Source of the DNA: Rhodanobacter sp. ANJX3
GTDB lineage: Bacteria; Pseudomonadota; Gammaproteobacteria; Xanthomonadales; Rhodanobacteraceae
Length of the DNA stretch: 64,000 nucleotides
Direction of reading: 5' to 3'
NCBI RefSeq assembly: GCF_014200755.1
Contig: NZ_JACHCM010000001.1
Span: 894,367 to 958,366 of the forward strand
Shown: positions 45,011 through 64,000 of the stretch, piece after piece
Numbering within the stretch: position 1 is the first letter of the stretch
Layout of the letters: each line of letters starts with the position of its first letter
The notes under the pieces: model-generated
What the model was told of the DNA's origin: nothing
The model's input: only the letters and a program-made list of their open reading frames with translations
Databases searched by the model: none
Translations under genes and position numbers: made by a program

Positions 45011-46519
45011 TCAGCGGCCGGGACCGCCCATCTGCGGTCCCGGGGCCGCTTGCGCGGCTTGGTTCTGTACCTGCATTTGAGCTTGGACCTGCGCGTGTAC
45101 TTGTGCCTGTTGCTGATTGACCTGAGCCATCTGCTGCGTGCTGTGTTCGATAGGCGTGTTGACGGCCTGTGTTGTATTGACGTGAACCACGTTGGGAAAG
45201 CCAAGCCTGGCTTCTTTTTGAGCGGCAAATGCATTCGAGCCATTATGGCTCAAAGCCACGACATCAATCTGCTTCAGGCCAGCTGCCTTACCCTCGACCG
45301 CCAAGACACCGGCCAGGTTCACGCTACGGTGGTCCGACGCGCGGCCGTGCTCGGCATCGATCTTCTTTACGCCGTCGTAGGCTTGCTGAAACAGTCCGTG
45401 GTCGGGGTGCGCGGGATCGTTGAGCAATGGCGACGACCAGCCAGCGGGGTGTCTCTGAGAATACGCTTCACCGGCTGCTGCACCTATGGCGTGCGTGCCG
45501 CGAGAGACTTCCTTCGCAACCTCGTCCGCCGCATGCACCGTGGCGTCGATGCCTCGTGACGCAGCATCGACGGTCGCGTGGTAACCCTTGGCCGCTTCAT
45601 GTTCGACATATTGCGCCGCTCGTTCCGTGGTACGCAGGCCTTCGGTCGCCTTCTCACCGACAAAACGCGCTGTAGCCGCTCCCAGCTCAACGCCCGCCTT
45701 TTGCTCCTCCCAGGGAAGAGACACGACCGTCCGCGCGGCGAGAACGTCGTGACGGTATTGGTCGATCATCCCTTTGTGGGATGCGTATAGCGCCTCGTTT
45801 TCCTTGGAAATAATCGAGTGACCGAGGCGAGGATTATCCGGAAGAAAATTGGTCACGCTGTGCGCGTCCAAGTCCACGCCCTCGATCGGAAGGCGCGGGC
45901 TCAGCGGGCCGTTGGTGTCGTGGTAGCCGGCCTTTTGCAGCCGGTCGATGTCCTGCGGCGACGCATAGATGCGCGTCTCGCCAAAGTGCTGGCTCGCGGC
46001 GCTGACCACGTCGGTAGCGCGCACATAGTTGATGACTTGGTGACCGCCCTCGGGAACGCCCTGGAAAAGACCGGCCGCTCCATACGCGTTAAAGGTTTCT
46101 CCATGCAAGTTGTATTTGTACGCCGTGATTTCGGCCAGCGTGCCGCCGAGAGAGTGCCCGGTGACGGTGGCATGGAAGGGCAAGTGATTCTGCTCGTCGT
46201 AGTTCTTTCCTTGTTCCAGAGCTTTTTTTGTAAACGCCATCGCGTCGGCCGTCTGCACATTGACACCCGCAGTGACCATGCCGATATCGGTCGCGATGTC
46301 CTGGTACTTCATCCTGGCCGCATCGGTTCCACAGTGCGCAATAACGACATCGCCGGTGTCCTCACGAACATAGGCCGTGCCCTGATACCCGGTCAATCGA
46401 TCGTGAGCTTCGTCTAAAACCTTGTAGCGAATCCCGGCCAGGGTAACCTCCTGACCCAGTGAGTGAGTGTTGTAGGCGTCGGCCGCCAACATCGCATGGT
46501 CTTCAGTGCTTAGGGTCAT
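45011..46519 (-). CDS. Antibacterial lipase effector with XVIPCD-like secretion domain
   Basis: A 502-residue protein without a signal peptide. The N-terminal part is a class 3-type lipase: VVIAHCGTD (57-65), nucleophile elbow GHSLGG with Ser123, and an Asp/His pair further on (RATD 167-170; LDAH 217-220 and GHSI candidates). Residues 280-355 are a helical linker. Residues 368-460 match the XVIPCD of Xanthomonadales type IV effectors: HPDHGLFQQAYDGVKKID, NLAGVLAVEGKAAGLKQID, NAFAAQ, VNTTQAVNTPIEHS, followed by a Gln-rich tail (QMAQVNQQQAQVHAQVQAQM). Such proteins are injected into rival bacteria. It overlaps the upstream lipoprotein gene by four bases (ATGA), the typical immunity/effector coupling. 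Confidence 0.9.
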   Translation of the reverse strand: MTLSTEDHAMLAADAYNTHSLGQEVTLAGIRYKVLDEAHDRLTGYQGTAYVREDTGDVVIAHCGTDAARMKYQDIATDIGMVTAGVNVQTADAMAFTKKALEQGKNYDEQNHLPFHATVTGHSLGGTLAEITAYKYNLHGETFNAYGAAGLFQGVPEGGHQVINYVRATDVVSAASQHFGETRIYASPQDIDRLQKAGYHDTNGPLSPRLPIEGVDLDAHSVTNFLPDNPRLGHSIISKENEALYASHKGMIDQYRHDVLAARTVVSLPWEEQKAGVELGAATARFVGEKATEGLRTTERAAQYVEHEAAKGYHATVDAASRGIDATVHAADEVAKEVSRGTHAIGAAAGEAYSQRHPAGWSSPLLNDPAHPDHGLFQQAYDGVKKIDAEHGRASDHRSVNLAGVLAVEGKAAGLKQIDVVALSHNGSNAFAAQKEARLGFPNVVHVNTTQAVNTPIEHSTQQMAQVNQQQAQVHAQVQAQMQVQNQAAQAAPGPQMGGPGR

Positions 46520-47121
46520 TGACTGACTTCCTTGGCAGAAAGTGTGATGACGAAGAAGTCACTTCGATACTTTTTGACTGTCTCGGACAACTCCTGCCCG
46601 CCATCGCCGTAAGTTTGGTCGCTGCCGTTCGAAAGAGCTTTAATCGGCAAATAAAGATCCACCGACTTTTGACTTTGCAAATCACTCAGACGGTAACTCG
46701 GAGTAAACGTTGTGCCGTTGCCCTTGATCTTGAAAGAGGCCATAGCCGACGACATGATCCAGTGGCACACGCCCATGCCGTCATAATCGGCATCCAGAAA
46801 ATAATCCGTGACCACCGTTCCCTTGTAAGTGTGGTCGTCCACCTTTTTGAGCTCGAACGGGATGAACTGCGCCAGGTTGCTTTGATGCCCGCTGAAAGCA
46901 TCGGGGCGCACACATGTGCTGCTGTTTTGCACCTCGTAGATCATCGTTCCCCCGGCTGTATCGAACCCCCTGGGCGCGCCATGAACCGTGATGGTGATCT
47001 CGTAGCGCTGTTTGGCGTTGGGGTTGGGTTTGATGTCGGGAGTCTTCATGGTCGAGGCGCCACATCCGGAAGTGATCAGGGTCAGAGAGAAAAGCAGCAC
47101 GGCGGTCACGCGGCTAAGCAT
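46516..47121 (-). CDS. Lipoprotein, putative immunity protein A of the lipase effector
   Basis: A 201-residue lipoprotein (signal MLSRVTAVLLFSLTLITSGC, lipobox around Cys20). The mature domain begins KTPDIKPNPNAKQRYEITIT. AGGA precedes ATG 47121. It overlaps the effector start, which strongly suggests that this copy is the matching immunity protein, acting in the periplasm where the injected lipase works. The first 135 residues are almost identical to copy B (47500-48105), whereas the last 65 differ widely. Confidence 0.85.
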   Translation of the reverse strand: MLSRVTAVLLFSLTLITSGCGASTMKTPDIKPNPNAKQRYEITITVHGAPRGFDTAGGTMIYEVQNSSTCVRPDAFSGHQSNLAQFIPFELKKVDDHTYKGTVVTDYFLDADYDGMGVCHWIMSSAMASFKIKGNGTTFTPSYRLSDLQSQKSVDLYLPIKALSNGSDQTYGDGGQELSETVKKYRSDFFVITLSAKEVSQ

Positions 47122-47320
47122 GGAATTCCTGCCTCGATGGAGAGTCTTGGTGAAGGGTGCGACCAGCGGGCGCCCGGAAACAGCTGGATAGTTCACAGCT
47201 CGGCGACGTGTTAGCCATGCTTCGATCATGCATCGGCGGTGCTCCATGCTCCGTTCGGTTTGAGTGTAGCGCCAAATACAGCAAACTGCCTTTCCCGAGG
47301 ACCGGGTTTATTTACAAACG
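47122..47320. repeat. Duplicated leader of the immunity genes
   Basis: The leader of copy A (47122-47320) is repeated upstream of copy B at 48106-48310, about 984 bases away, including GGAATTCCTGCCTCGATGGA and CCGTTCGGTTTGAGT. It marks the extent of the tandem duplication and probably carries the promoter. Confidence 0.8.
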
Positions 47321-47499: not shown

Positions 47500-48105
47500 T
47501 CATGGCATCACCTTTCGGGAAGACAGCGTCATGTAGAAAACCGCGTTGCGTATCTTCGGCGATACATCCGCCAAGGATTGGCCTCCGTCGCCATATTTCT
47601 GATGGTCGTCGCTTGAGAGTTCGGCCAGAGGAAAGTAGACATCGACCGATCTCTCTGCCACCACATCCTCATGTAGGATGCTCGGGCCAAAATCCACGCC
47701 GTTGCCATTGATCTTGAACGAGCTCAAGGCCGACGACATGATCCAATGGCACACGCCCATGCCGTCATAATCGGCATCCAGAAAATAATCCGTGACCACC
47801 GTTCCCTTGTAAGTGTGGTCGTCCACCCTTTTGAGCTCGAACGGGATGAACTTCGCCAGATTGCTTTGATGCCCGCTGAAAGCATCGGGGCGCACACAGG
47901 TGCTGCTGTTTTGCACCTCGTAGATCATCGTTCCCTCGGCTGTATCGAACCCCCTGGGCGCGCCATGAACCGTGATGGTGATCTCGTAGCGCTGTTTGGC
48001 GTTGGGGTTGGGTTTGATGTCGGGAGTCTTCATGGTCGAGGCGCCACATCCAGAGGTGATCAGGACCAGAGAAAAAAGCAGCACGGCGGTCACGCGGCTA
48101 AGCAT
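47500..48105 (-). CDS. Lipoprotein, putative immunity protein B
   Basis: A 201-residue paralogue of immunity protein A with the same signal peptide and lipobox (LITSGC). Residues 1-135 are nearly identical, then the sequences diverge abruptly (SSFKINGNGVDFGPSILHED here against ASFKIKGNGTTFTPSYRLSD). The duplication includes the leader upstream. It probably protects against a different effector variant, as seen with arrays of 'orphan' immunity genes. It is separated from copy A by a repeat and a gene fragment, so it may be transcribed on its own. Confidence 0.82.
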   Translation of the reverse strand: MLSRVTAVLLFSLVLITSGCGASTMKTPDIKPNPNAKQRYEITITVHGAPRGFDTAEGTMIYEVQNSSTCVRPDAFSGHQSNLAKFIPFELKRVDDHTYKGTVVTDYFLDADYDGMGVCHWIMSSALSSFKINGNGVDFGPSILHEDVVAERSVDVYFPLAELSSDDHQKYGDGGQSLADVSPKIRNAVFYMTLSSRKVMP

Positions 48106-48351
48106 GGAATTCCTGCCTCGATGGAGAGTCTTGATGACGGGCGCGGCTAGAGCGCGCGCCTGGAAACAGCTGGATAGTTCACAGCTCGGGGAAGTGTTAA
48201 CCATGCTCAGGTCATGCATCGGCGGTGCTCAATGCTCCGTTCGGTTTGAGTCTAACGCCAACTCCAGCGATCCACCTTTCCCAAGGGACCGGTTTTATTT
48301 ACAAAAACGAAATGAAGTAAACCGGCCTCCTTTTTCGCCACCGTTATTTTT

Positions 48352-54391: not shown

Positions 54392-54562
54392 GGCCGCCTC
54401 CTGATTCCATCCAAGTGCCCGTCCACGGCATGACGACGGACGGGAAGTCGGGAGGCTAGAAACCGCAGACAGCCGGCGGGCGTATTCCCCTTGCGGGTGT
54501 TGTATTAGCCGCCCTCCCGACGCAGGCATCGCGTCGGTTGCACCTACAAAAAGCGTAGGCAC

Positions 54563-54709: not shown

Positions 54710-55834
54710 TTATTTGGTGTTGAGGACAGGTGCAGCACGAGCATGTGGATATCCCGCATGAACGCTGAAATTCACTCTCTGTCCCACAGCCGGCTTCTGA
54801 TTCCCAAAGTATTCGCTTCGATGGTAAAACCAAGAGTCTGCCTGAACGTCGTCCTTGATGTAACCGGTCTGGCTAGCCGCGCCACTTGAATAGCGAACAC
54901 CGTAACTAGTAATGGTCCCTCGGCGTCTTTCACTAAAGGCGTAGCACCACTCGCCGCAAATCCGCGCAACTTCCGCCGCACTCGGTCGAGCTGCAGGAGC
55001 GACTTGAATACAGGACTGAATAAGGGACCAAATTTGATCTTCGAGCGGGCCCGTCGACGCATGCACTCCAAAGATTGCCGGCTTTGTAAGATTCGCTTGA
55101 CCGAGATTTTCTGCGCGCACGACCGCCGCAATAGCCGCTCGACCGGTGCCAAAGGGGGGAGTCCCACTTACAAGTTGGTAAGCGATGCACCCTAATGCCC
55201 ATACATCCATCGGCTGTCCTGCTGTCTTCCAATTTGCCCAGCACTCTGGGGCCATATATGGAACGGCACCCAGCAACGTATTTGATGAGGTGAGTGTTGA
55301 TTCATCCTGCTCGAATTCTTCAATTTCAGCCGCAATCTGGTGTTCTGCAAGTTTGGCAATGCCGAAATCAGTAAGCTTGATCGAAGTAATGCCTGCGTCG
55401 CGCGAAGTCATAATGTTGCTTGGCTTCAGATCCCTATGACAAATTCCAACCCGGTGAGCCTCCATTAGTGCACGCGCAATGTTATGGATCACGTGCGCCG
55501 CTAAGCACGGGTCTAGAAATTCGAATTCATCCCGAAGACGCTTCGCGAGATCGAGGCCTTCAACATACTCTTCGATCAGAAACGTTAATTTTTCATCTTC
55601 ATAGTAGTCAAGTGTCGCGGCTACGTTATGGTGACTGATACGTGCACCCATTTCAGCACCGCGTCGAAACCGGCGATCTTTCACTCCACCTTTTGGAGTT
55701 TTGAGAACGACCGCTCGATCAAGTGCATTGTCAAAGCATGCGTAGACTTCCTGCATGCCCCCCGCATTTAGATACCCGTTGATTGCATAGCGACCAACCA
55801 AAAGAGTCCCGTCTTTGAGCATAGGGTTGTTCAC
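54710..55834 (-). CDS. Ser/Thr protein kinase 2 of a PP2C-kinase-kinase operon
   Basis: A 374-residue Hanks-type kinase. Lys45 in AVVLKTP, the catalytic loop CHRDLKPSN (132-140), TDFGIAK (155-161) and the MAPECW motif are all present, so it should be active; the Gly-loop is degenerate (NAGGMQEVYACFD). About 100 residues follow the kinase core. The start is a GTG at 55834: GGAG lies eight bases before it and it overlaps the stop of kinase 1 by four bases (GTGA). No membrane helix, so cytoplasmic. It is the last gene of the operon. GC content is visibly lower than in flanking chromosomal genes. Confidence 0.9.
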   Translation of the reverse strand: MNNPMLKDGTLLVGRYAINGYLNAGGMQEVYACFDNALDRAVVLKTPKGGVKDRRFRRGAEMGARISHHNVAATLDYYEDEKLTFLIEEYVEGLDLAKRLRDEFEFLDPCLAAHVIHNIARALMEAHRVGICHRDLKPSNIMTSRDAGITSIKLTDFGIAKLAEHQIAAEIEEFEQDESTLTSSNTLLGAVPYMAPECWANWKTAGQPMDVWALGCIAYQLVSGTPPFGTGRAAIAAVVRAENLGQANLTKPAIFGVHASTGPLEDQIWSLIQSCIQVAPAARPSAAEVARICGEWCYAFSERRRGTITSYGVRYSSGAASQTGYIKDDVQADSWFYHRSEYFGNQKPAVGQRVNFSVHAGYPHARAAPVLNTK

Positions 55835-56910
55835 AGCACTAACTCCGGGTAGGACGACTGGAATGTAACCCACTCTCTGCTTGAGCCAGCAGTCATAGCT
55901 CCGAACGTGAGCACACAAGATTCAGGTAACGTGGCACCTGGCTGTGCGACAACATTGTTGACGAAAACGTTACCCGTAACGAAACCTATTAGGAAATAAA
56001 GTCCATCATAGAAGACTTTAATTTCACCCATCTGTGGAATCGCGATGCTGACTTGCGGACTGGACGAAGAGAGTTCGTAGATGGAGGTTCTTCCCTGAAC
56101 AAATATTCCCCTGTGAAGGTTGCGGAGCAAATATCTTTCTAGCTTTGAGCTGATGTCTTGTGCTGATGGTCTGTTCTGCGGGGAACGGCTTAAGCAGTCA
56201 TCAATTAACTTAACGATTTCGCCAGGAAAAGCCCCCTTAAAAATCGAATCAATAGATGGAGCGCAACCAGACTGCTGTGGCGGCCGCTCCAGCAGCACCT
56301 GGGGAAATTGATTGGCAGCAAGCGCCCAGCAACAGATCCCCAACGCGTAAATGTCCATGCTGTAATTTATCTTTACACCAGGTTGATATAGCTCCGGCGC
56401 TGCATAGACAATGGAGCCTCGATTTTCGCGCGTGTGATATCCAGTTCCTGCGCAAGAGATTCCAAAGTCGAAAAGCTTTAATATTCCTGATCCCGACTCG
56501 CGAATATTTTCGAGTTTAATATCTCGATGGACTATGCCTACTTCGTGTAAATCCCGCAGAGCCGTTGCGATCTGGTAGATGAGCCGCAGGTACATCTGTG
56601 GATCCGAGAGAGCTTCCAGGTGAAAATGCCGGTAATCGCGACCGTTCAACTTCTCAATCACTACGCCGCAAACTTGGCCATTTGCGTCACAAACAATGTC
56701 ATATATCTCTACGACGTGACGAGACCGGGCTTTCGACAGTCCACGGATCTCGTTGGTCAGCTGCAAATTGTTCGCAGGGTCGTGCATCGTTTTGAAGAGA
56801 ACGGCACGATCTAAGTAGGTATCGTGGACCGGGATGACGCTTCCGTATCCGCCGACTATAGAAGGAGCGGCTAGGTCGGTCCTATACCTGTCCGGTAGTT
56901 GCATCGTCAT
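55831..56910 (-). CDS. Ser/Thr protein kinase 1 with FHA-like C-terminal domain
   Basis: A 359-residue Hanks-type kinase (about 15-265): Lys40 in RAVLFKTM, Glu54, catalytic loop VHRDIKLEN (127-135), LFDFGIS (146-152) and YAAPELY. Residues 270-359 form a beta-rich domain (EIKVFYDGLYFLIGFVTGNV, FVNNVVAQPGATLPESCVLT) similar in layout to an FHA phosphothreonine-binding domain, which would let it dock onto phosphorylated partners. It overlaps the phosphatase gene upstream (ATGA) and kinase 2 downstream (GTGA). Cytoplasmic, AT-richer than the chromosomal average. Confidence 0.9.
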   Translation of the reverse strand: MTMQLPDRYRTDLAAPSIVGGYGSVIPVHDTYLDRAVLFKTMHDPANNLQLTNEIRGLSKARSRHVVEIYDIVCDANGQVCGVVIEKLNGRDYRHFHLEALSDPQMYLRLIYQIATALRDLHEVGIVHRDIKLENIRESGSGILKLFDFGISCAGTGYHTRENRGSIVYAAPELYQPGVKINYSMDIYALGICCWALAANQFPQVLLERPPQQSGCAPSIDSIFKGAFPGEIVKLIDDCLSRSPQNRPSAQDISSKLERYLLRNLHRGIFVQGRTSIYELSSSSPQVSIAIPQMGEIKVFYDGLYFLIGFVTGNVFVNNVVAQPGATLPESCVLTFGAMTAGSSREWVTFQSSYPELVL

Positions 56911-58073
56911 TCCTTAGATGGACCATCATCTTCCGACAAGCCTTTCACGACAGCTCTGACTCTGCCTTTTGGCGCGCTTGCTACTGGAGTGAGCTTTAGT
57001 TGCCTTTCATTGTCTTCTTTTGCCGCTCGGCTTCGCGCAACTCGCTTCGGTCCTTTTTTTCCAGGCGCTACGTCGGGAACTCTATCTTTCGAATTCGAAC
57101 TTTGATCCAAACGCTGATGCAATACGACCTTGGTGTCACAGATCCATGCAGAAATAACATTGCGCGCGGAAGTCTCGATTCGGACGGAATTGTTGAGCTT
57201 GCCTAACTCGTGAATATTCCGGATCGCAATGATAGAGGCGTTGTCGAGATCGCCGGACCACGATGCTAGCGCGAGAGTCCGACGTACTAGTTCCGCGGGA
57301 GATCCTGTGTTCTTTGCGATCGCGTTAAATCCACTCTTCGAGCCTCTCCAAGATCCATCGCTTGCAAGTACCGCTCCGCCGTCAGGAAATTGTTTTTCAC
57401 CTAGCACCGATATTCGTAGGTCCTGAGAACTCCTTCCCGACTCACCCAACGCCTGCGAAAGACTGCCACGGAGACCTCTAGCATCTAAGACTCCAACATC
57501 TTTCATTTCTAAGTCACGTAGTTCATTTTCCAAAGTGTCATCAACGCTGACTTGGACGTAACCAAAGCCCTGGCGCCAGCTGAAAATTCGGCTATCACCG
57601 ACGTTAGCTGCCGCTATCTCTCCTGCTGAAGAGGCCAGCATGACGCTTGCTGTTGTGGTGCCAGACCCTCGCAAGGCCTGTCGTATCGCTTCGTCCATAT
57701 CGCGAAGTAACCTAGTCACCAATGCGGGGAGTGGGGTTCGAGCATTTAGAAGGCCAAGCTGCTCGACTAATTTCACTATCGCAATCGTCGCCGCCTCATC
57801 GCCGCGTTCAGATCCGCCGACTCCGTCACATACAGCAGCTACAGTTAAAACATCTCCGTAAGCGCACGAGATCTGTGCGAAGATAGCTCTATCCTCGTTT
57901 CTAGATCTCTTCTGCCCTGCATGGATGCCTATTGCGGTACGGAATTGGTCAATTGCCTTCACGGCAGATACATTCCAAGACACGGCGGACACTTCTGCGA
58001 GCAGTTGCATCCCTAGCTCGCTGGCGAATAGATTCGGGGTCATATGTGGTTTTTCCATTTCAGGCATCAGCAT
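56907..58073 (-). CDS. PP2C-family protein phosphatase
   Basis: A 388-residue phosphatase, first gene of the operon. The metal-binding motifs are RSRNEDRAIF (57-66), VCDGVGG (81-87), NVGDSR (157-162), LASDGSW (236-242) and DLDNAS (275-280), all intact. A C-terminal extension of about 100 residues ends in a Lys/Arg-rich tail (GKKGPKRVARSRAAKEDNER). It should dephosphorylate Ser/Thr residues placed by the two kinases. Start codons at 58073 and 58067 are both possible (GGTGG just upstream). Cytoplasmic. Confidence 0.9.
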   Translation of the reverse strand: MLMPEMEKPHMTPNLFASELGMQLLAEVSAVSWNVSAVKAIDQFRTAIGIHAGQKRSRNEDRAIFAQISCAYGDVLTVAAVCDGVGGSERGDEAATIAIVKLVEQLGLLNARTPLPALVTRLLRDMDEAIRQALRGSGTTTASVMLASSAGEIAAANVGDSRIFSWRQGFGYVQVSVDDTLENELRDLEMKDVGVLDARGLRGSLSQALGESGRSSQDLRISVLGEKQFPDGGAVLASDGSWRGSKSGFNAIAKNTGSPAELVRRTLALASWSGDLDNASIIAIRNIHELGKLNNSVRIETSARNVISAWICDTKVVLHQRLDQSSNSKDRVPDVAPGKKGPKRVARSRAAKEDNERQLKLTPVASAPKGRVRAVVKGLSEDDGPSKE

Positions 58074-58165
58074 AGTCCACCATCCGTCGTTGCTGCATGG
58101 AAAACATCTGGAAAGAACTTCGCATCCACGGGGGCGCTAGACCACTACAACCTGACCCGAAACTA

Positions 58166-58214
58166 ACAGGCTCAGGTTCACTTCCGTACTAGGGATAAGT
58201 GAACCTGAGCCTGT
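58166..58214. repeat. Dispersed hairpin repeat family 2, copy 1
   Basis: A perfect 18-base inverted repeat (arms ACAGGCTCAGGTTCACTT and AAGTGAACCTGAGCCTGT) around a 13-base loop ending AGGGAT. A sister copy is at 58575-58625. Confidence 0.8.
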
Positions 58215-58514: not shown

Positions 58515-58574
58515 CCAGTACCAGTGAAATCAGAAGCAGGAGGCGCACGGTTTTGGCAGGCAATTCCACAACCG

Positions 58575-58625
58575 AACGGGGTCAGGTTCACTTCTGCGCT
58601 AGGGATAAGTGAACCCGATCCCGTT
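58575..58625. repeat. Dispersed hairpin repeat family 2, copy 2
   Basis: Arms AACGGGGTCAGGTTCACTT and AAGTGAACCCGATCCCGTT, two mismatches in 19, loop CTGCGCTAGGGAT. With copy 1 it brackets a broken gene. Confidence 0.78.
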
Positions 58626-58638
58626 TTCGTTATTATTT

Positions 58639-60195
58639 TCATTCCAATTTTGAGACGATGACAGTTCGAAGATCATCAAAATCATTTGAGAATGCTTTAC
58701 TAACGACCTCGGATAGCTTTTGAAGGCACTGATCTTTAGTAAGTCCGACGTGCATCGCTATTTCGTGGAACTCGTTATGTTTTCCGGCCTGCAGACCGTA
58801 TTCGATAACATCCGCCACTTCGTCAATTTCAATCAATAGTGATTCCGCAATTAAATTTGGCACGCCCTTGCATTTCTGCAAAATCCAGGCCTCTGGCCAA
58901 GTATCACCCGGAAGGTACGTTGAACTGCTAGAAAACCAATTAGCAAAAGTTGGCGTTGGATTTTCAGCCATCTTTTTAGCGTGGTCTAAATTAGCCGCCT
59001 CGTTCACTCTCTGATCCCCATCATAAACAGCTAGGATCTGCGTAACAGCGCCTCTCACATGGAACGCAGCCAACTGCCTAGAAATCGCCGACGAAGAACC
59101 TATGATCGTAATATCAGTTCTCGATCTAATCGAAGCCGGCAAAATGGCCTGCAAGACAGATTTTGCAACATCATCTTCAACAAATATGTCTAGCTCTTTC
59201 TGCCCTGAAGCCCCCATCTTATTAAACGCAAACTCGGGAGAAATCCCCGCTGTTATCTTTGTCTTCCCTCCGACAGCCTCAACAAAAAATCGAGCCTCAT
59301 CGGGCAAACATTCAAATATTTCCTTCGAATGAGTTGTGCAAATAACTTGAGTACTCATTTCCTTACAAACTTCTTTTAGCTTTTTCATAAACAGCTTTTG
59401 AGCCTTGGCATGAAGACCCAACTCAATTTCATCCATGACAAGAAGCGCACCCTTTCCGGCGGAATATAACGTAGAAAATATTTCGAATAATGCATTTTCG
59501 CCGGCACCCATGTTAAATCCAGAGTAAATCACAGTGCCACACTGGACTAAAGGAAGGCTATATCTCGCATGCTCTAGGTATCTGAAGTTGTCATATTGTT
59601 TTCCTAATATAAATCCAACGATATCTTTTACCTTAGACTCCCATCCTTTCGCAGGAACAGCCGAAAACGACCTTGAGTACGACTTCGACTGACTTCTTTC
59701 GATATGAGGAACAATTCTTTCAATGCCAAGAAAGACAACATTTCTATCTATCCTTTCGTCATAATCATTCCATTTTCCGCCTTTCTTCTTTCGTCTTGCC
59801 TGAAATCCAATACCTTTTCCGTTTGGCAAATTTTTGGATTCTTTCCAACCATCATGCGCGATTGAATAAAATATCTCTATGCCTTGAGGCGTAACTTCGT
59901 TTGTGTGCTGAATAAAGAAATCAGAAAAAGTGTAGTAACTATTCTTTCTTTTTGGAAGTTTATATCCATCTAATTTATTATGGAAAGCACAGCATGCCAT
60001 TGCAAGAATGGTAGATTTTCCAGCACCATTTACACCTGAGAACGCCACTATTGGATAGTCAAAACTAAGCGATAGTGAATTTATTCCCCTAAGAGCACCC
60101 TTAGTAAGCTTAATACTTCTGAGCAGCGCCTTTGATAAGTCATTCATGAACCAAGATCTTAAATCCTTGTCTATTTGACTTTCCCTATACTTCAT
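58639..60195 (-). CDS. OLD-like ATPase with TOPRIM nuclease domain
   Basis: A 518-residue protein that is strikingly AT-rich for this window. The ABC/SMC-like ATPase has Walker A GVNGAGKST (54-62), a signature-like segment GFNMGAGENALFEIF (226-240), Walker B LLVMDEIELGLH (251-262) and the switch His289 in TTHSKE. It is followed by a TOPRIM domain: Glu340 in IFVEDD and Asp392-x-Asp394 in VYDGDQ. This order is that of OLD (overcoming lysogenisation defect) nucleases, which act in phage defence. No UvrD-type partner (as in Gabija) is adjacent, so it would be a single-gene member. GGAGG precedes ATG 60195. Confidence 0.9.
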   Translation of the reverse strand: MKYRESQIDKDLRSWFMNDLSKALLRSIKLTKGALRGINSLSLSFDYPIVAFSGVNGAGKSTILAMACCAFHNKLDGYKLPKRKNSYYTFSDFFIQHTNEVTPQGIEIFYSIAHDGWKESKNLPNGKGIGFQARRKKKGGKWNDYDERIDRNVVFLGIERIVPHIERSQSKSYSRSFSAVPAKGWESKVKDIVGFILGKQYDNFRYLEHARYSLPLVQCGTVIYSGFNMGAGENALFEIFSTLYSAGKGALLVMDEIELGLHAKAQKLFMKKLKEVCKEMSTQVICTTHSKEIFECLPDEARFFVEAVGGKTKITAGISPEFAFNKMGASGQKELDIFVEDDVAKSVLQAILPASIRSRTDITIIGSSSAISRQLAAFHVRGAVTQILAVYDGDQRVNEAANLDHAKKMAENPTPTFANWFSSSSTYLPGDTWPEAWILQKCKGVPNLIAESLLIEIDEVADVIEYGLQAGKHNEFHEIAMHVGLTKDQCLQKLSEVVSKAFSNDFDDLRTVIVSKLE

Positions 60196-60301
60196 CGCTC
60201 CCCCTCCATAGATATTTAGAAGTCACACAAATTTGCGGATTGACTCTTGAGGCATAAACAGTCACTCACATTCCTGATGACCTCCACTAGGAGTTTCCTA
60301 A

Positions 60302-60520
60302 TCAAAACATCAGCAACTTCAGCCCCTGCTCCTTCGCAAACTCGATAGCGTCTTCATACCCCGCGTCCGCTTGCCGCATCACGCTGTACCCGAATCGTTC
60401 CACAACACGCGCGCAATGCGCTTGTCGGCTTCTTGCGTGCCATCGCAGACGATGCCGCTGTGCTGCGATTAGCCTATACCGATAACGCCGTGATGCAGGC
60501 TAACCCGCGCCGCTTCGCCC
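60302..60520 (-). pseudogene. hutU: Displaced, decayed hutU 3' end (copy 1)
   Basis: The minus strand reads VSLHHG, a stop, [25 protein letters not shown], and after a frameshift ADAGYEDAIEFAKEQGLKLL. These align with the last 72 codons of the intact hutU at 62863 but differ at many codons, and a premature stop, a two-codon deletion and a frameshift are present. It abuts the stop of the gene at 60523. Confidence 0.85.
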
Positions 60521-61221: not shown

Positions 61222-61312
61222 GTGCTCTCCCCTGTGTTTGATGCTCCGATATCATCTTAGTTACACCCACCCCGCAGCGTAACCGCGTGTCCGTTCTATG
61301 GTCGAGCGTGGC

Positions 61313-61384
61313 TCAGACCATCGGCAACTTCAACCCCTGCTCCTTCGCGCACTTGATCGCCTGGCCATAGGCTGCGTCCGCATC
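61313..61384 (-). pseudogene. hutU: Displaced hutU 3' end (copy 2)
   Basis: Twenty-four codons on the minus strand, DADAAYGQAIKCAKEQGLKL and PMV plus stop, align with the last codons of intact hutU ([21 protein letters not shown]) and with copy 1. It is cut at its upstream side exactly at palindromic repeat copy D. Confidence 0.85.
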
Positions 61385-61438
61385 CAAAAAGGGAGCGGAG
61401 GAAATGAACCCAAATTAATTACGTCGTCCCCAATTTCG
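61384..61438. repeat. Dispersed palindromic repeat family 1, copy D
   Basis: CCAAAAAGGGAGCGGAGGAA at one end and CGTCGTCCCCAATTTCG at the other; the centre AATGAACCCAAATTAATT matches copies B and C. It joins directly to the hutU tail fragment. Confidence 0.75.
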
Positions 61439-62798: not shown

Positions 62799-62862
62799 GT
62801 TCATCGACCTGCTTACGTAATAGAGCGGTGCGGGAAAACGAAAGAGGCTATCCCCCACCATA

Positions 62863-64000
62863 TCAAGCCATCGGCAACCTCAACCCCTGCTCCCTTGCAC
62901 ATTCGATCGCCTCCTCATACCCCGCATCCGCATGCCGCATCACGCCGGTGCCCGGATCGTTCCACAGCACCCGCGCAATCCGCTTGTCCGCCTCGGCCGT
63001 CCCATCGCACACGATGACAATGCCGCTGTGCTGCGAATACCCCATTCCCACCCCACCGCCATGATGCAACGACACCCACGTCGCGCCACCTGCAACATTC
63101 AACATCGCATTGAGCAGCGGCCAGTCGGACACGGCATCGCTGCCATCCTTCATCGCCTCGGTCTCGCGGTTCGGTGAAGCCACCGACCCCGAGTCCAGAT
63201 GATCGCGGCCAATAACTACCGGCGCCTTCAGCTCCCCGTTGCGCACCATCTCGTTAAACGCCAACCCAAGCTTATCCCGCAGCCCTAACCCGACCCAGCA
63301 GATGCGTGCGGGCAACCCCTGAAAGCTGATGCGCTCTTTGGCCATGTCGAGCCAGTTGTGCAAGGCCTTGTCGTCGGGGATGAGTTCCTTGACCTTGGCG
63401 TCGGTCTTGTAGATGTCTTCGGGGTCGCCGCTGAGCGCGACCCAGCGGAACGGGCCGATACCGCGGCAGAACAGCGGGCGCACATAAGCGGGCACGAAAC
63501 CGGGGAAGGCGAAGGCGTTGTCGCAGCCGATGTCCTTGGCCATCTGGCGGATGTTGTTGCCGTAGTCGAAGGTGGGGATGCCCTGCGCGTGAAAGGCGAG
63601 CATGGCTTCGACGTGGGTGCGCATGGACTGCTTGGCCGCGTCGCGCGTGCCTTCGGGGTCGGCCTTGCGGCGCTCCAGCCACTGCTCCACCGTCCAGCCC
63701 TGCGGCAGGTAGCCGTTGACCGGATCGTGCGCGCTGGTCTGGTCGGTGACGGCATCGGGGCGCACGCCGCGCTTGATCAGCTCGGGCAGGATGTCGGCGG
63801 CGTTGCCGAGCAGCGCGATGGATTTGGCTTCGCCGGCCTCGGTGTATGTTTTGATGCGCGCCAGCGCGTCGTCCAGGTCGCTGGCCTGCTCGTCGACGTA
63901 GCGCGTCTTGAGGCGGAAATCGATGCGGCTCTGTTGGCATTCGATATTGAGGCTGCACGCGCCGGCGAGCGAAGCGGCCAGCGGCTGCGCCGCGCCCATG
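62863..64000 (-). CDS. hutU: Urocanate hydratase (5' part outside window)
   Basis: The C-terminal 378 residues of urocanase, running off the right edge; the full enzyme is about 555 residues. It converts urocanate to imidazolonepropionate in histidine degradation in the cytoplasm. Visible conserved segments include [62 protein letters not shown] and [15 protein letters not shown] at the NAD-binding region. The coding sequence is intact to its stop at 62863. Two diverged copies of its 3' end lie downstream. Confidence 0.97.

Follow-up and report, generated by a model that had tools for sequence, protein, structure and literature searches.

The window, the whole stretch of 64,000 nucleotides analysed from the chromosome of Rhodanobacter sp. 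ANJX3, contains at positions 54710–58073 three overlapping genes for a PP2C phosphatase and two Ser/Thr kinases, and the question raised by this locus was whether the arrangement is a new module or a system that has already been named. The preliminary description had regarded it as a candidate new defence or signalling module with an arrangement that carried no name. This was mistaken on the second point, as the order, sizes and domain layout of the genes are those of the kinase-kinase-phosphatase (KKP) system, which has three components and combines toxin-antitoxin with antiphage functions (Guo et al., 2024; PMC11341870). The operon is very probably a divergent KKP member located in a chromosomal defence locus, a known system and not a new module; the assignment to defence or signalling was retained, given the antiphage activity of homologues and the prophage, plasmid and defence-gene settings described below. 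The features of the operon are:

56907–58073, minus strand: pfpC, PP2C-type Ser/Thr phosphatase of 388 amino acids (Pfam PP2C_2, E 1e-7), putative antitoxin and phage sensor
55831–56910, minus strand: pfkB, Ser/Thr kinase with an all-beta FHA-like C-terminal domain, 359 amino acids (Pkinase, 2.4e-29), putative toxin half
55834–56118, minus strand: FHA-like beta domain of PfkB (alignment, AlphaFold2 model, hhalign E 7.5e-4 against 30 FHA domains)
54710–55834, minus strand: pfkA, Ser/Thr kinase with a C-terminal cold-shock domain, 374 amino acids, GTG start (Pkinase, 1.2e-40), putative other toxin half
54713–54931, minus strand: cold-shock domain of PfkA, about residues 302–374, with GYI in place of GFI/A (alignments, PDB profile search, motif table)

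The genes lie on one strand in the order pfpC-pfkB-pfkA with lengths of 1167, 1080 and 1125 bp, and reading of the minus strand confirmed the two 4-bp overlaps that had been reported. The pfpC/pfkB overlap is ATGA, with an AAGGA just 5′ of the pfkB start at 56910, and the pfkB/pfkA overlap is GTGA, with the GTG start of pfkA at 55834. A longer pfkA frame from a TTG at 55918, taken from the ORF listing, is unlikely because the relatives begin at the same place as the GTG, which was preferred. Alignments revealed that the catalytic residues HRD, DFG and APE are all kept in both PfkB and PfkA and that the PP2C metal-binding aspartates of PfpC are invariant when compared with seven relatives, consistent with the intact motifs described previously. 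PfpC ends in a basic C-terminal tail that is probably disordered. A Kyte-Doolittle scan of the three proteins gave no hydrophobic 19-mer above 1.6, indicating that PfpC, PfkB and PfkA have no membrane helix, and the GC content of the operon genes was 0.49–0.52 compared to 0.59 for the window and 0.65 for hutU; both properties had been noticed in the preliminary description, the latter as an AT-richer block.

The KKP system is defined as a PP2C, Pkinase, Pkinase triplet in which each gene is 900–1300 bp long (PMC11341870, methods), and the three window genes fall within this range on the same strand. The published components are PfpC, a PP2C phosphatase, PfkB, a kinase with an FHA domain, and PfkA, a kinase with a cold-shock domain containing a GFI/A motif (PMC11341870); the window operon shares the gene order, the PP2C and two Pkinase genes, the catalytic motifs, the cold-shock domain on PfkA and an all-beta, possibly FHA-like tail on PfkB. 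More than 1,200 KKP clusters have been reported, about 90% of them in prophages, with three published clades and described modules that include KKP_MP (MPAO1 Pf6) and KKP_EC039 (E. coli 15EC039) (PMC11341870). The window copy is likewise associated with mobile DNA and defence genes, however it is chromosomal and apparently outside a prophage, unlike about 90% of the published systems. Further differences are the cold-shock motif, which is GYI compared to the published functional GFI/A, and the glycine loop of PfkB, which is GGYGSV compared to GGM.

When the three proteins were searched with PADLOC the kinases matched generic kinase models, the best for PfkA being the PD-T4-6 kinase model; the phosphatase gave no match and no KKP-named model matched for the operon. 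The PD-T4-6 match spans the generic kinase domain only, and although PfkA has the Pkinase domain in common with the defence kinases PD-T4-6 and Stk2, these are single genes that lack a cold-shock domain and are accompanied by neither a phosphatase nor a second kinase.

The feature that proved decisive for the KKP identity is the C-terminal tail of PfkA, which is a cold-shock domain and was absent from the preliminary description. When a profile of 19 PfkA tail sequences was searched against the PDB almost all of the matches were cold-shock proteins, with a best E-value of 2.2e-10, and the AlphaFold2 model of PfkA (pLDDT 84.5) contained five C-terminal strands. Pfam PF00313 matched seven of the 14 PfkA members, and the window PfkA alone gave an E-value of 0.057. 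The motif table gave GYI for the window, GLI for Massilia and either GFI or GFA for the remaining 19 sequences, including GFI for Pantoea; the motif position is thus kept in the window, with a conservative swap of the aromatic residue, and the window and Massilia proteins both have a longer loop before the motif. In tested homologues the cold-shock motif of PfkA is required (PMC11341870).

The tail of PfkB was modelled by AlphaFold2 (mean pLDDT 88.6) as all-beta, with C-terminal strands at residues 268–352. The FHA family PF00498 matched none of the 13 PfkB members, and a PDB sequence-profile search with the PfkB tail gave no FHA match. Alignment of the tail with 30 FHA domains using hhalign gave a weak match with the C-terminal half in register (E 7.5e-4, probability 25%), compared to 0.097 for the negative control. 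It is plausible that the tail is an FHA domain, and the FHA-like C-terminus that had been proposed for the first kinase is weakly supported. Foldseek searches with the full PfkA and PfkB models were swamped by kinases and were uninformative on the tails.

A gene-neighbourhood search for orthologues of all three genes recovered the triplet, with its order unchanged, from about 20 independent elements, so that the arrangement is more than chance. Among the tblastn matches the triplet was carried by Pantoea, Rhizobium, Agrobacterium and Xanthobacter plasmids, by a P2-like phage of Klebsiella and by a P2-like element of E. coli, and a Planktothrix phage contained the phosphatase and one kinase. 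The module was present in 14 of 5,426 complete E. coli genomes, and at the two chromosomal loci inspected it had the P2 replication gene on one side and the portal gene on the other. Searching viral contigs (IMG/VR) with PfkA gave 14 loci, 13 of which had the order PfpC-PfkB-PfkA; at locus L158 only the phosphatase was missed and both kinases were picked up. This order was shared by the Massilia locus, by two additional complete loci in genomes and by essentially every complete locus with a full-length PfkA relative. As read from the sequence, the module of Massilia eburnea is satellite-like, lying between a phage-type integrase and replication-type genes, and that of genome G771 is directly upstream of a phage-type integrase. 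The plasmid copies adjoin an ABC-three-component system, Shedu, SbcCD and a toxin-antitoxin pair.

The module is uncommon. Searching 35 genomes of the genus gave no close relative of PfkB, and among 398 genomes of the order full-length PfkA was present only in the window genome and one other. A draw of 369 genomes from the class gave no other full-length PfkA match, and a draw of 398 from the phylum gave two. A scan of genome contigs recovered mostly unrelated HRDLKPSN kinases, with clear KKP loci only in Massilia eburnea and a Pseudomonas MAG. This rare and patchy distribution fits a mobile module.

The window PfkA was 59% identical to that of Pantoea and 54% to that of Massilia, compared to 33–44% for most other copies, and the corresponding values for PfkB were 50%, 53–54% and 31–38%. 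PfpC was 37% identical to the Pantoea and 43% to the Massilia protein, and its overall identity to the seven other copies in the alignment was 17–36%. In the midpoint-rooted concatenated tree the window copy grouped with the Pantoea plasmid, Massilia and G771, with support of 80 and 100 on the two branches above the window. It is conceivable, though unlikely, that in the group made up by the window, Massilia and Pantoea copies the cold-shock domain, with GYI or GLI in two of three members and a longer loop preceding the motif in the window and Massilia, and the fast-diverging PfpC respond to a different phage trigger or use a different nucleic-acid cue than in the P2- and Pf6-type modules, and that the group acts in defence only.

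The operon lies between hutU (62863–63999) and a conserved hypothetical 'MSTFD' gene (53786 to about 54388). In four relatives the block around the 'MSTFD' gene follows hutU at a distance of about 4 to 11 kb, and the content in between differs. The features between hutU and pfpC are:

58639–60195, minus strand: intact ABC-ATPase and TOPRIM gene, HEC-04/IbfA-like (PADLOC HEC-04, E 3.6e-44, residues 4–492 of 518)
58570–58624, unstranded: palindrome copy 2, direct repeat, folding z −4.1
58160–58214, unstranded: palindrome copy 1, direct repeat, folding z −7.6, between the ATPase gene and pfpC

The neighbouring OLD-type gene and the repeat hairpins of the preliminary description are both real. Antiphage activity has been reported for HEC-04 and IbfA, HEC-04 being an ABC ATPase fused to TOPRIM (PMC12111858), and the neighbour resembles these in both domains over its full length. 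Its GC content of 0.41 is below that of its surroundings and differs from that of the KKP genes, and it is probably a separate defence gene that is outside the KKP. The two 55-bp palindromes are 82% identical, have the same orientation and flank about 355 bp between this gene and pfpC. That they are genome-wide repeats was ruled out, as the genome contains two copies only, and the spacer between them gave no match in plasmids.

Over the few kb that immediately follow hutU, PADLOC families were detected in five of 11 relatives (a truncated ATPase-TOPRIM, type I restriction-modification, a dGTPase, Old and a PDC-M61 pair) and in one of 10 distal control ORFs (a Zorya gene), a comparison of hand-picked ORFs that is a rough count made with no statistical test. 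A lack of enrichment near other defence genes and a constant association of orthologues with T6SS clusters had been named beforehand as counting against a defence role; the position of the window copy in a defence-rich locus, and that of the orthologues away from T6SS, favour it. The Zorya gene, which is ZorA3-like, is from a related genome (L065:5170-8433) and lies downstream of hutU at a distance of about 10–13 kb. The 3′ end of hutU (62862–63063) is repeated downstream of the gene as two diverged pieces (61312–61395 and 60301–60495), and partial second copies of hutU are present in the related genomes G018, G006 and G003, which suggests that cassettes may enter the locus by recombination at the hutU end.

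Published work on homologues provides a model for how the operon could act. PfkA and PfkB are toxic only together, and their toxicity is relieved by the antitoxin PfpC; E. coli is protected against T4 and T-odd phages by KKP modules from four other prophages, and in an E. coli homologue PfpC is bound and inhibited by Gp59, the helicase loader of T4 (PMC11341870). By analogy the window operon is most likely a phosphorylation-based toxin-antitoxin defence in which PfpC would be the brake that is inhibited by phage. PfkB and PfkA would form a joint toxic Ser/Thr kinase pair, capable of phosphorylating many host proteins and stopping growth, with PfpC holding the pair and its substrates dephosphorylated. 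Inhibition of PfpC by an infecting phage, as by Gp59 in the E. coli homologue, would unleash the kinases, causing the infected cell to arrest and so blocking phage production. We infer that the window copy may be expressed and work like its homologues. A defence role is supported by the antiphage activity of homologues (PMC11341870), the P2-prophage and plasmid defence-gene settings of the relatives and the defence-rich window locus.

A KKP-derived module could instead be mainly regulatory, for example silencing resident mobile elements through phosphorylation of an H-NS-like protein, with no real phage defence. In MPAO1 the H-NS-like MvaU is a phosphorylation target of the KKP, which also controls Pf prophages (PMC11341870), and there are three H-NS-family genes in the window genome. 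The genome has no inovirus Zot gene and no PF04860 phage portal gene, however, which leaves the module without an evident prophage of either type to control, and the locus is rich in defence genes, making this reading very unlikely. The surroundings of the operon showed no phage genes, so that its principal role is more likely defence than the regulation of a prophage resident in the genome.

It is also highly improbable that the operon is a decayed, non-functional KKP remnant on the chromosome. The change of GFI to GYI would be consistent with decay, as would the duplicated hutU pieces and palindromes nearby, which indicate a rearranging locus, but the three open frames, the catalytic residues and the 4-bp translational overlaps are all kept, and the sister copies have GLI in Massilia and GFI in Pantoea, showing that variation of the motif is tolerated within the group. 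Threonine phosphorylation pathways of type VI secretion systems (T6SS) also join a kinase, a PP2C phosphatase and an FHA protein, but descent from a PpkA/PppA-like pair that has lost its neighbours was rejected as having a negligible probability, since the genome contains no VipB sheath gene, in line with the absence of T6SS genes described previously, the operon has two soluble kinases and a cold-shock domain on PfkA, and the relatives are in phages and plasmids, away from T6SS clusters.

The reading of the operon as a divergent KKP thus places this system on a gammaproteobacterial chromosome, apparently outside prophages, at a locus where relatives carry other defence genes, and agrees with a published proposal that certain KKPs are dedicated to defence. 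What is new here is the divergent copy in a chromosomal defence hotspot, the system itself having been described in 2024 (PMC11341870), and the divergent cold-shock motif is a natural variant for probing the role of that domain.

Two further observations were made in the window. A copy of sRNA-Xcc1 (RF02221) at 54439–54521 on the minus strand (78.7 bits, gathering threshold 53) lies a short way past the 3′ end of pfkA and precedes the 'MSTFD' gene; the block of about 500 bp that contains it is 82–85% conserved in three relatives. The gene at 45011–46519 on the minus strand encodes a lipase-like protein with a Q-rich tail that, judged from its sequence, resembles antibacterial X-T4SS effectors; it is followed by duplicated lipoproteins at 46516–47247 and 47500–48219 on the same strand, with repeats that are 86–96% identical, which could be its immunity proteins.
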